Assembly: GCA_903855945.1 (NCBI GenBank)
Contig: CAIOAK010000098.1
Location: 1-51,009, forward strand
Length of the DNA: 51,009 nucleotides
Source: an uncultured Anaeromyxobacter sp.
GTDB taxonomy: Bacteria; Myxococcota; Myxococcia; Myxococcales; Anaeromyxobacteraceae
Reading direction: 5' to 3'
The notes beneath the pieces are model-generated. The model saw only the letters and a program-made list of their open reading frames with translations. It was not told the DNA's origin and ran no database searches. Below, one piece after another: positions 46,118-50,646 of the stretch; within the stretch, counting starts at the first letter, position 1; each line of letters opens with the position of its first letter. The position numbers and the translations under genes are program-made.

Positions 46118-48739
46118 CTAGCCCTCCGGCGGGGCCCGGAGGTGCTTCCCCAGCGCCACGTCGTGCGACAGGATGTGGTAGCGGAACCACTCCGGTAGCC
46201 GCTTCGTCGCCCAGTGGCGGAACCCCAGCGTCACCCCGTTCTGCTCCAGCTCCAGCAGGAACCGTCGGGAGTCGGCGACGAAGTGGGCGTGCGCCTCCTC
46301 GTGGCGCGTGCGGGACGGGTAGGCGCTCTTCCGCATGAGTTCCTCCTCGAGCCCGAAGTGATCGACCACCGTGGCGATGAAAACCACCAGCCCGGGGCGC
46401 ACATTCTCTGCGTCGCCGAGGTCCACCCGCTCGATGAAGTCGGCGATCCCCTCCGCGAGCTCCCGATGCTCCGCGTCGAAGGGCCCGTACCCGGTCTCCA
46501 TGAAGCCAGACGGATTGCAGGGCTTCCCGTCGGACGTGTCCTTCTCCGCATTCTGGACGGCCCCCATGTCGACCCAGGACTCGGCGCACTGCACCTGGTT
46601 GCGCCCCCCGTTCTTGGCGGCATAGAGGGCATCGTCGGCCCGGTGGATCATGGTGTGGAGGGAGTCCTCCGGCCGCATCTCGGCGACGCCGAAGCTGGCG
46701 GTCACCCGGCCCACGCTCCCGATCTGTGCCCCCTCCAGGTGGGTGCGCAGCTTCTCGGCGAGGCGGGCCGCTCCCGCGGCGTCGGTCATCGAGGCGATGA
46801 TGGCGAACTCCTCTCCGCCCCACCGGGCCACCAGGTCCGAGTCGCGCACCCGCGCGGCGAGGAGCCGGGCGGTCGCGGAGAGCACCTGGTCGCCGGCGGC
46901 GTGCCCGAACCGGTCGTTCACGTCCTTGAAGTGGTCGAGGTCGACGATCACGACGGAGAGCGGATGCCGGAATCGGTGGGCCCGCGCGAATTCGCGGGCC
47001 ATCGCCTCGTTGAAGCTCTGCCGGTTGGCGATCCCGGTCAGCGCGTCGGTGTCGGCCTTCCGCGCCATCGCACGGGCGCGACCCTCGGCCTCGTTCCGCT
47101 TCTGGGTCAGTTGCGCCTCGGTCCCGAACTGCGCCTGCAGCAGGACGAAGATGGAGATCACGCCGATGCTCAGGATGAGGGTGATGGCGATGCCGAGGAG
47201 CCGGCTCATCCCGGTCAGGGTCTCCGCCCGGAGCGAGACGACCGAGGCACCCATCCACGGCAACGGGGAACGCACCGCAACCTGGCGTTGCCGGTCGAGG
47301 CGAACCCATGCGGCTCCGCTCCACGGACCCGGCATGAGCGGACTTTCCCCGCCGACCACCCCCGCCGGCTGCGCGGCTCCTGCCCAGACCACCCTTCCCC
47401 GATCCCAGCCCTCTCCCGCCAGGATCACCCGCCCGTCGTCCGACACCAGGAGGGAGACCCCGGTGCCGCGGGGACCGAAGGAATCGCGATCGATCACCTG
47501 CTCCACCACGGCGACGCCCAGGATGGCACCGCTTCCATCCCGGACCGGCCCGGCGGCGAGGAACACCGGCGTGCCCCCGCTGCCCCGGGCGCCGATGGTG
47601 TGCACATCCCGCCCCTCCACGGCGGCGCGGAACCAGGGGCCGTCGGCGACCCTCGCCTCCAGGTTGTCCTCCGGGCCACCCCGCAACGAGGAGGCCACCA
47701 CCCGCCCACCCGTGTCGATCAGGTAGGAGGCCGGATCGCCATTCTCTCCCGCGACGGCGTCGAGGAGGTCGTGGAGGCGCGCCTTGTCCCCGAGGGCCAG
47801 CGCGGGCGAGAGATCGAACGCCGCGACGACGCGCTGAAGGGTCCGGAGCGAGTCGACCGTCCCGGAGAGTTCCATGGCGAGGTGGTCCTGCACGCTAGCG
47901 GCACCGGCCTGGGCATCGGCCTGCAGTTCCCGGTCGCGCTGGCTGCCGAGCCGTTCGGTGAAGACCCAGCCGCCGGCGAGGATGGCGAACAAGGCCGCGT
48001 TGAGCGCCCAGAAGAAGCGCCTTCGCTTCTTCGCCACCCGCCCGTTCGGATCGAGGGAGATCCCGTGGGCCCAGACGCCGACGGTCGCCACGCCGATTCC
48101 GAGGACGCAGACCACCTGGATGGGGATGCCCGTGACCGCCAGGAAGGCCTCCTCGGTGGGCCAGCCCGTCGGCACCACCGGAGAGGCGGGGACGAAGATG
48201 CCGCTCGCAACCCCGAAGATCGACAGCCCGACGGCGGTCCAGAAGAGTTCCTGGCCGACCTCGCCATCCGGCCGTGCGCCTCCTCCCGATGCGGCCCCGA
48301 TCACGAGCGCCGCTCCCAGCGTGGCCGGCAGTGCGGCCAGGAGCCTCACCGCCGTGCCCAGGCTCGAGACGCCCCACACGGACGCCACCAGGAGCGGGAG
48401 CAGGGCCACCGCTCCGGTGACCCAGGGTGCCGGTCCGCTCCCGTGGGTCACCGCTCGGGCACGCCGGGCGAACTCGAGGAGGAGCAGGTAGCTCGCGAGG
48501 GAGAGGAGGGAGGTGACGGACGCCGGGACGAGTTGCCCCCCGAGGGCGGTCTGCACGAGCTGGATCCACGCGACGATTCCGTAGAGGAAGGCGAAGGCCG
48601 AGAGCCACTCCCAGGGCAGGCGCCCGCTCTCCGAGCGTGGCTGGACGGCTGCAACCGCACCCAGGGCGACCATCGCGAGCCCGTACACGAAGTAGACGTA
48701 GTCGAGCTGGGCGACGTAGAACTCGATCATTGCCGCCAT
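46118..48739 (-). CDS. Diguanylate cyclase with membrane/periplasmic sensor and C-terminal bacteriohaemerythrin
   Basis: An 873-residue c-di-GMP synthase. Order: about seven membrane helices (1-230), another helix near 245-262, a Cache-like periplasmic sensor (about 265-500, LIDTGGRVVASSLRGGPEDN, GVAVVEQVID), a last helix (about 505-530), GGDEF (560-725) and haemerythrin (745-870). The active loop is W640 plus GGEEF (641-645). The inhibitory I-site RDSD sits five residues before it. Haemerythrin ligands are visible: EH in FDAEHREL, H and E in VDHFGLEEE, HxxxH in RHEEAHAHF, and H-I-x-x-x-D in WFRYHILSHD. The di-iron site binds O2, so c-di-GMP output is probably oxygen-controlled. Confidence 0.92.
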   Translation of the reverse strand: MAAMIEFYVAQLDYVYFVYGLAMVALGAVAAVQPRSESGRLPWEWLSAFAFLYGIVAWIQLVQTALGGQLVPASVTSLLSLASYLLLLEFARRARAVTHGSGPAPWVTGAVALLPLLVASVWGVSSLGTAVRLLAALPATLGAALVIGAASGGGARPDGEVGQELFWTAVGLSIFGVASGIFVPASPVVPTGWPTEEAFLAVTGIPIQVVCVLGIGVATVGVWAHGISLDPNGRVAKKRRRFFWALNAALFAILAGGWVFTERLGSQRDRELQADAQAGAASVQDHLAMELSGTVDSLRTLQRVVAAFDLSPALALGDKARLHDLLDAVAGENGDPASYLIDTGGRVVASSLRGGPEDNLEARVADGPWFRAAVEGRDVHTIGARGSGGTPVFLAAGPVRDGSGAILGVAVVEQVIDRDSFGPRGTGVSLLVSDDGRVILAGEGWDRGRVVWAGAAQPAGVVGGESPLMPGPWSGAAWVRLDRQRQVAVRSPLPWMGASVVSLRAETLTGMSRLLGIAITLILSIGVISIFVLLQAQFGTEAQLTQKRNEAEGRARAMARKADTDALTGIANRQSFNEAMAREFARAHRFRHPLSVVIVDLDHFKDVNDRFGHAAGDQVLSATARLLAARVRDSDLVARWGGEEFAIIASMTDAAGAARLAEKLRTHLEGAQIGSVGRVTASFGVAEMRPEDSLHTMIHRADDALYAAKNGGRNQVQCAESWVDMGAVQNAEKDTSDGKPCNPSGFMETGYGPFDAEHRELAEGIADFIERVDLGDAENVRPGLVVFIATVVDHFGLEEELMRKSAYPSRTRHEEAHAHFVADSRRFLLELEQNGVTLGFRHWATKRLPEWFRYHILSHDVALGKHLRAPPEG

Positions 48740-50145: not shown

Positions 50146-50646
<501 letters not shown>

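Follow-up and report, generated by a model that had tools for sequence, protein, structure and literature searches.

A predicted membrane-anchored diguanylate cyclase with a putative C-terminal haemerythrin sensor and a diverged Cache domain in an uncultured Anaeromyxobacter

The window, which is the whole stretch of 51,009 nucleotides analyzed here, comes from an uncultured Anaeromyxobacter sp. and carries a gene for a multidomain signaling protein. By analogy with characterized enzymes, and with modest confidence, this protein is read as a membrane-anchored, GGDEF-dependent cyclase that would be tuned by oxygen or redox state through a C-terminal di-iron haemerythrin, its periplasmic input having been retired or re-targeted. 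From the N-terminus to the C-terminus, its parts are eight hydrophobic helices, a double Cache domain predicted to be periplasmic, a ninth helix, a GGDEF domain, a linker, and a haemerythrin. A preliminary description had proposed the order membrane region, Cache, GGDEF, and C-terminal haemerythrin, with which Pfam, NCBIfam, and hydropathy agree.

Gene and domain architecture

The main search for relatives covered 99 genomes, namely the window's own and 98 relatives. The full architecture was found in three relatives of the same family of genomes (G001, 54% identity; G003, 54%; G004, 43%). Full-length orthologues at these identities exclude chance as the origin of the 873-residue open reading frame, which runs from an ATG at 48739 to a stop at 46118 (Table 1). 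Comparison with the orthologues indicates that Met4 could be an alternative start. A haemerythrin arising by chance or out of frame was also ruled out by the orthologues, the ligand alignment, and the fold match. The cyclase gene is solitary and has no co-directed partner: the left neighbor, which encodes a trypsin-like protease with two PDZ domains, is convergent, and the right neighbor, which encodes an EamA transporter, is divergent. A scan for promoters and terminators returned 0 sites. A rubrerythrin is encoded nearby and is syntenic, with 91 and 92% identity, by the cyclase orthologues in G001 and G003. A redox-protective di-iron rubrerythrin near the gene of a putative di-iron sensor is suggestive, although it falls short of demonstrating a functional link.

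Table 1. Features of the cyclase gene and its surroundings (window positions; res, residues of the protein).
Feature	Position	Strand	Basis or remark
CDS, 873-aa 7/8TM-dCache-TM-GGDEF-haemerythrin protein	46118..48739	(-)	ORF, orthologues
Eight predicted transmembrane helices (res 14-260)	47960..48700	(-)	Plain hydropathy scan; no Pfam family
Periplasmic double Cache, DctB-like (res 261-512)	47204..47959	(-)	dCache_1, six-member profile vs PDB
Ninth predicted transmembrane helix (res 514-532)	47144..47200	(-)	Hydropathy
Cytoplasmic helical linker into GGDEF (res 533-561)	47057..47143	(-)	AlphaFold helix, model residues 2-23
GGDEF domain (res 562-715)	46595..47056	(-)	PF00990, TIGR00254, PDB fold match
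I-site RxxD (R632, D635)	46835..46846	(-)	Sequence; invariant in six-protein alignment
GGEEF active-site motif (res 641-645)	46805..46819	(-)	Sequence; invariant in six-protein alignment
Disordered linker GGDEF-haemerythrin (about res 722-752)	46484..46576	(-)	pLDDT below 50; poorly conserved
C-terminal haemerythrin (res 748-866)	46142..46498	(-)	TIGR02481, ligands, fold
Rubrerythrin (PF02915 + rubredoxin-like PF21349)	50149-50646	(-)	1.4 kb from cyclase gene

The GGDEF domain matches PF00990 and TIGR00254 with E-values of 3.8e-44 and 9.3e-49, respectively. It was aligned in a set of six proteins, which contains the window protein, its three orthologues, and two distant GGDEF-haemerythrin proteins (L063 and L065). 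The signature GG[DE]EF is present, and the D, N, D, K, and R positions, which we take to be the metal and substrate residues, are invariant across this alignment. The I-site had been called intact, and R632 and D635 are indeed present and invariant with the orthologues and the distant proteins. Residues 541-873 were modeled with AlphaFold from 30 alignment rows, where the GGDEF domain has a pLDDT of mostly 92-98 and matches PDB structures with Z up to 28.1 and 1.0 Å over 162 residues. Among the matches listed for this GGDEF-haemerythrin model in the fold search, there were GGDEF domains only and no haemerythrin. An intact GGDEF domain of this type should act as a diguanylate cyclase that makes cyclic-di-GMP.

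The haemerythrin was earlier said to follow the GGDEF domain directly. The model argues against this, since the two domains are separated there by about 30 residues of low confidence (model residues 182-212, pLDDT about 42). The preliminary description was right in assigning a complete di-iron ligand set: H758, H794, E798, H813, H817, H855, and D860 are all present and invariant in the six-protein alignment. The domain scores 59.0 bits with TIGR02481, above the cut-off of 51.75, and falls below the cut-offs of PF01814 (18.8 bits, cut-off 25.3) and NF033749 (55.3 bits, cut-off 84). Haemerythrins of the relatives L118 and L122 pass the PF01814 cut-off. The nearest solved relative is the haemerythrin domain of DcrH (E 1.3e-8). 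In the model of residues 541-873, the haemerythrin part forms a four-helix bundle with a pLDDT of roughly 79-89. When the haemerythrin was modeled alone with AlphaFold (3 alignment rows, pLDDT 82.5), DcrH-Hr ranked first in Foldseek (E 5.9e-4), and the first 14 rows of VIA-align were all haemerythrins with Z from 17.7 to 13.9, the top row having an rmsd of 2.1 Å over 130 residues. The best unrelated row has a Z of 13.4, which is a small gap from 13.9 for a helical bundle; therefore, the fold is an addition to the evidence of the ligands and no substitute for it. The haemerythrin is predicted to be a di-iron domain that would bind iron and sense oxygen or redox state. The other four haemerythrin matches of this genome (L001-L004) were considered as further GGDEF-haemerythrin proteins and rejected, as they look stand-alone by eye in their frames (L002 being judged from a 144-residue frame only).

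Six lysine or arginine residues in the loop before helix 8 suggest that the Cache domain is outside the membrane and the GGDEF domain is inside. No named 7TM family passes its Pfam threshold for the N-terminal module; the best scores, for ETR1_N (E 0.017) and Pox_A14 (E 0.16), are not credible. The 7TM module alone is present in 12 of the 195 genomes of the phylum. Five distant matches of this module were scanned, of which four (L173, L174, L176, and L178) carry histidine-kinase outputs and one has no named domain. This suggests that the module is an undescribed membrane sensor module.

Divergence of the periplasmic Cache domain

By its family profile, the Cache domain is DctB-like. dCache_1 matches all six family members tested and sCache_3_2 matches one of the six, with no other Pfam Cache family found. 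The window protein itself scores 32.7 bits with dCache_1 (whole protein), which is below the cut-off of 45. A profile built from the six members and compared with PDB (E up to 0.01) found three distinct sequences, all DctB sensor domains (3by9, 3e4o, and 2zbb; E from 1.6e-17 to 8.1e-15). A passage of PMC8694187 names 3by9, which was deposited as 'Sensor protein', as DctB of V. cholerae, and C4-dicarboxylates are given as the DctB signal in a passage of PMC4077058.

Most of the Cache signature RPYF ... GFYASEPV ... VVK survives in the relatives; G003 retains RPYF and VVK, and G001 has R in place of K. The signature is broken in the window copy, which reads GPWF ... VFLAAGPV ... VVE and has R367G, Y369W, S388G, and other replacements in the pocket region. 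The DctB-type pocket set consists of the R and Y of RPYF, an S or T, an aromatic residue, and the K of VVK. At these positions, the window copy has GPWF at 367, G388, V392, and E413. The changed positions are presumably the ligand contacts of the DctB structures.

To express this divergence, a position was counted as conserved when it was identical in every other family member, and the window copy was compared with the rest in a set of seven related sequences, whose rows are not independent and whose conserved positions overlap. Of the conserved positions, those changed in the window copy number 19 of 51 in the Cache domain, 12 of 60 in the 7TM module, 6 of 66 in the GGDEF domain, and 3 of 37 in the haemerythrin. 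When the other six rows are pooled, the corresponding Cache count is 23 of 209 (Fisher p 2.6e-5, rows non-independent) and the 7TM count is 20 of 277 (p 0.006). The rates for GGDEF and haemerythrin are no different from those of the other rows (p 0.61 and 0.42, respectively). The end branch of the window protein is 0.74, compared with 0.23 and 0.18. Since the 7TM module is also faster and the end branch is long, part of the Cache excess comes from a generally fast lineage. The lineage is fast overall, and the excess change is concentrated in the sensory half of the window copy. These replacements indicate that the window Cache has probably lost the ancestral dicarboxylate-type ligand. The earlier idea that the protein could integrate oxygen with a periplasmic ligand matches the family, with its DctB-like Cache, better than it does the window copy, where most of the shared pocket-region residues are gone.

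Relatives and known haemerythrin proteins

In G013 and G002, the Cache-GGDEF part is present without a haemerythrin (the G002 contig begins inside the 7TM part). G002, a draft that is 74% complete, has a stand-alone haemerythrin on another contig that is 56% identical to the window domain. This gene belongs to a pair of convergent haemerythrin genes (L122:3-1104, G002:C450) whose ends overlap by about 14 bases. G008 (L121:4174-6720, G008:C50) keeps the 7TM module, most of the Cache, and the haemerythrin, and its reading frame is missing helix 9 together with the N-terminal half of GGDEF. This gap may be a real catalytic loss or an assembly fault in a single draft genome. Among the matches listed for the 145 genomes of the order, GGDEF together with haemerythrin occurs only in the window genome, in G001, G003, and G004, and in G008, where the gene is broken. 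Among those listed for the 195 phylum genomes, where at most 11 candidates per genome were scored and weak cases may be missed, only G188 is added, which encodes a PAS-GGDEF-haemerythrin protein (L165). Outside the phylum, haemerythrin follows GGDEF in 2 of 80 loci of a protein search, in Rhodoferax and a Spirochaetales MAG, which is not a frequency because the search patterns included one haemerythrin peptide. Thus, a search for haemerythrin behind GGDEF does recover the architecture, and the finding is not peculiar to the window protein. A unique architecture was ruled out by these other proteins, which have different N-termini.

A tree of 42 haemerythrin domains places the window domain in a seven-member clade (support 99/97) that includes five fused domains. 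The stand-alone G002 domain is nested among the fused ones (98/75, not firm), and the stand-alone G009 domain is outside the six others (97/93 for the six). This G009 outgroup domain (L140, G009:C14:2298-2669) is within a long open frame, and the region upstream of it looks by eye like a histidine kinase in another frame. The domains of Rhodoferax, Spirochaetales, and G188 are far from the window clade on long branches, suggesting that they are probably separate fusions. The simplest reading of the tree is that a stand-alone haemerythrin would have been captured once by the cyclase family and later split off in G002. Haemerythrins are expanded in the genomes of family f1, with up to 11 matches (G022), and are absent from most other genomes of the order.

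Like Bhr-DGC of Vibrio cholerae (Q9KSP0), the window protein has haemerythrin and GGDEF in one polypeptide, and the di-iron centre to which c-di-GMP synthesis is tied in Bhr-DGC has its counterpart here as far as sequence can tell. The order is reversed, as the preliminary description had noted: Bhr-DGC has an N-terminal haemerythrin and a C-terminal GGDEF according to passages of a 2022 review (PMC9388753), so the window protein is not of this type. Unlike Bhr-DGC, it also has nine predicted transmembrane helices and a Cache. Bhr-HD-GYP of Ferrovum also joins haemerythrin to a c-di-GMP enzyme; however, it degrades c-di-GMP through an HD-GYP output behind an N-terminal haemerythrin. In both characterized enzymes, according to the passages of the review, the sensor precedes the enzyme domain (PMC9388753). 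DcrH of Desulfovibrio vulgaris is a closer match in layout, being a membrane receptor with a periplasmic region and a cytoplasmic C-terminal haemerythrin behind its signaling domain, but its output is a chemotaxis MCP domain and not a cyclase. The proteins of Rhodoferax sp. BLA1 (L063), the Spirochaetales MAG (L065), and G188 (L165) share the order GGDEF then haemerythrin, and the seven ligands of the first two align with those of the window domain. Their N-termini differ, with a hydrophobic multi-helix region by eye in L063, no Pfam-named domain in L065, and PAS in G188. DctB, the only solved relative of the six-member Cache profile, is a histidine kinase, whereas the window protein has GGDEF and has replaced most shared pocket-region residues.

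One survey counted 53 C-terminal and 30 N-terminal chimeric haemerythrins with 16 GGDEF partners (a passage of PMC2556348), and another listed 22 haemerythrin-then-GGDEF proteins among 56 architectures (a passage of PMC4919030). Since such surveys already count both C-terminal haemerythrin fusions and GGDEF fusions, although neither passage gives a separate figure for GGDEF followed by haemerythrin, the window architecture varies a known design. No characterized GGDEF-then-haemerythrin protein was found in searches of an open-access library of papers or in the passages of the review (PMC9388753). What is new is the DctB-like Cache in this cyclase family, the presence and absence of haemerythrin among its relatives, and, in this species, a selective alteration of the Cache.

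Proposed regulation and its alternatives

According to the review passages, Bhr-DGC gains about 10-fold in activity in its diferrous form, Bhr-HD-GYP is active only when reduced, and the activity of both tracks the iron redox state with no O2 adduct seen (PMC9388753). The N-terminal loop of DcrH-Hr is ordered in met crystals and disordered in deoxy crystals (PMC9388753, same passages). In the proposed mechanism, the N-terminal part (7/8TM, Cache, TM9, and helix) would keep the protein dimeric and so bring two GGDEF domains within reach of each other. The flexible linker would tether the haemerythrin at its N-terminal loop, which corresponds to the segment that changes order in DcrH, and a redox change would alter the freedom with which the two haemerythrins allow the GGDEF domains to come together. 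Because the haemerythrin hangs by a flexible linker on the loop that responds to redox state in DcrH, redox-dependent tethering of the GGDEF pair is proposed. If the window protein behaves like Bhr-DGC, its reduced form would be the more active one, a sign that is moderately likely at best. Oxygen itself may be the signal, although the characterized Bhr enzymes follow the iron redox state. The c-di-GMP product would feed back through the I-site. In the cell, the protein might govern the change between motility and attachment when oxygen is low, which would be an ordinary role for c-di-GMP. After the probable loss of the Cache ligand in this species, the haemerythrin would be left as the best-preserved input. 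Retention of the full architecture in three orthologues supports this proposal, as does the little change in haemerythrin and GGDEF compared with the Cache. The domain and motif assignments, the closeness of the haemerythrin fold to DcrH-Hr, and the rubrerythrin gene conserved by the orthologues of two genomes count in its favor as well, whereas the haemerythrin scores below the Pfam and NF033749 cut-offs weigh against it. The relatives in G013 and G002 indicate that the haemerythrin is not essential to the enzyme, and the floppy linker of the model would be just as compatible with an absence of coupling.

The Cache may have been re-targeted to another periplasmic ligand, which the protein would combine with oxygen or redox state; this amounts to the earlier reading with a new ligand and is possible but less likely. 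The changes cluster in the membrane-distal half, where 11 of 26 conserved positions are altered, and the frame is open, with no damage to the domain or to the helices on either side of it. However, relaxed constraint would give the same pattern equally well, the Pfam matches show no other ligand class, and all three solved matches are DctB. A related and somewhat speculative reading is that a sensor swap is part-way: a DctB-like dicarboxylate-sensing cyclase would have captured a stand-alone haemerythrin at its C-terminus, which in this species would now be the main input while the Cache pocket erodes, and regulation would come from the C-terminal side.

It is unlikely that the haemerythrin is a local O2 or iron buffer, or a protective cap, riding on the cyclase. 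The long disordered linker, the haemerythrin-rich family of genomes, and the close stand-alone homologues in G002 and G009 are consistent with such a role, but a one-copy membrane protein would presumably buffer little oxygen, and both characterized haemerythrin-c-di-GMP enzymes are redox-switched in the passages of PMC9388753. Still less credible, and very improbable, is a dispensable passenger from a single fusion that is being lost in some members with no regulatory effect. All seven ligands persist in the window protein and in its orthologues, including the most distant one at 43% overall identity, which argues against this reading even though relatives in G013 and G002 lack the domain, the G002 stand-alone copy is nested among the fused ones, and G008 keeps its haemerythrin with a damaged cyclase (possibly an assembly fault).

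If the sensor swap is true, regulation would act through redox-dependent ordering of the N-terminal loop of the haemerythrin and not through the usual N-terminal coiled coil. Control of a cyclase from behind would be evidence that a sensor tethered at the C-terminus is able to gate GGDEF output. The relatives with haemerythrin, without it, or with it encoded separately, and with an intact or eroded Cache, would provide a panel for how a receptor changes its input.
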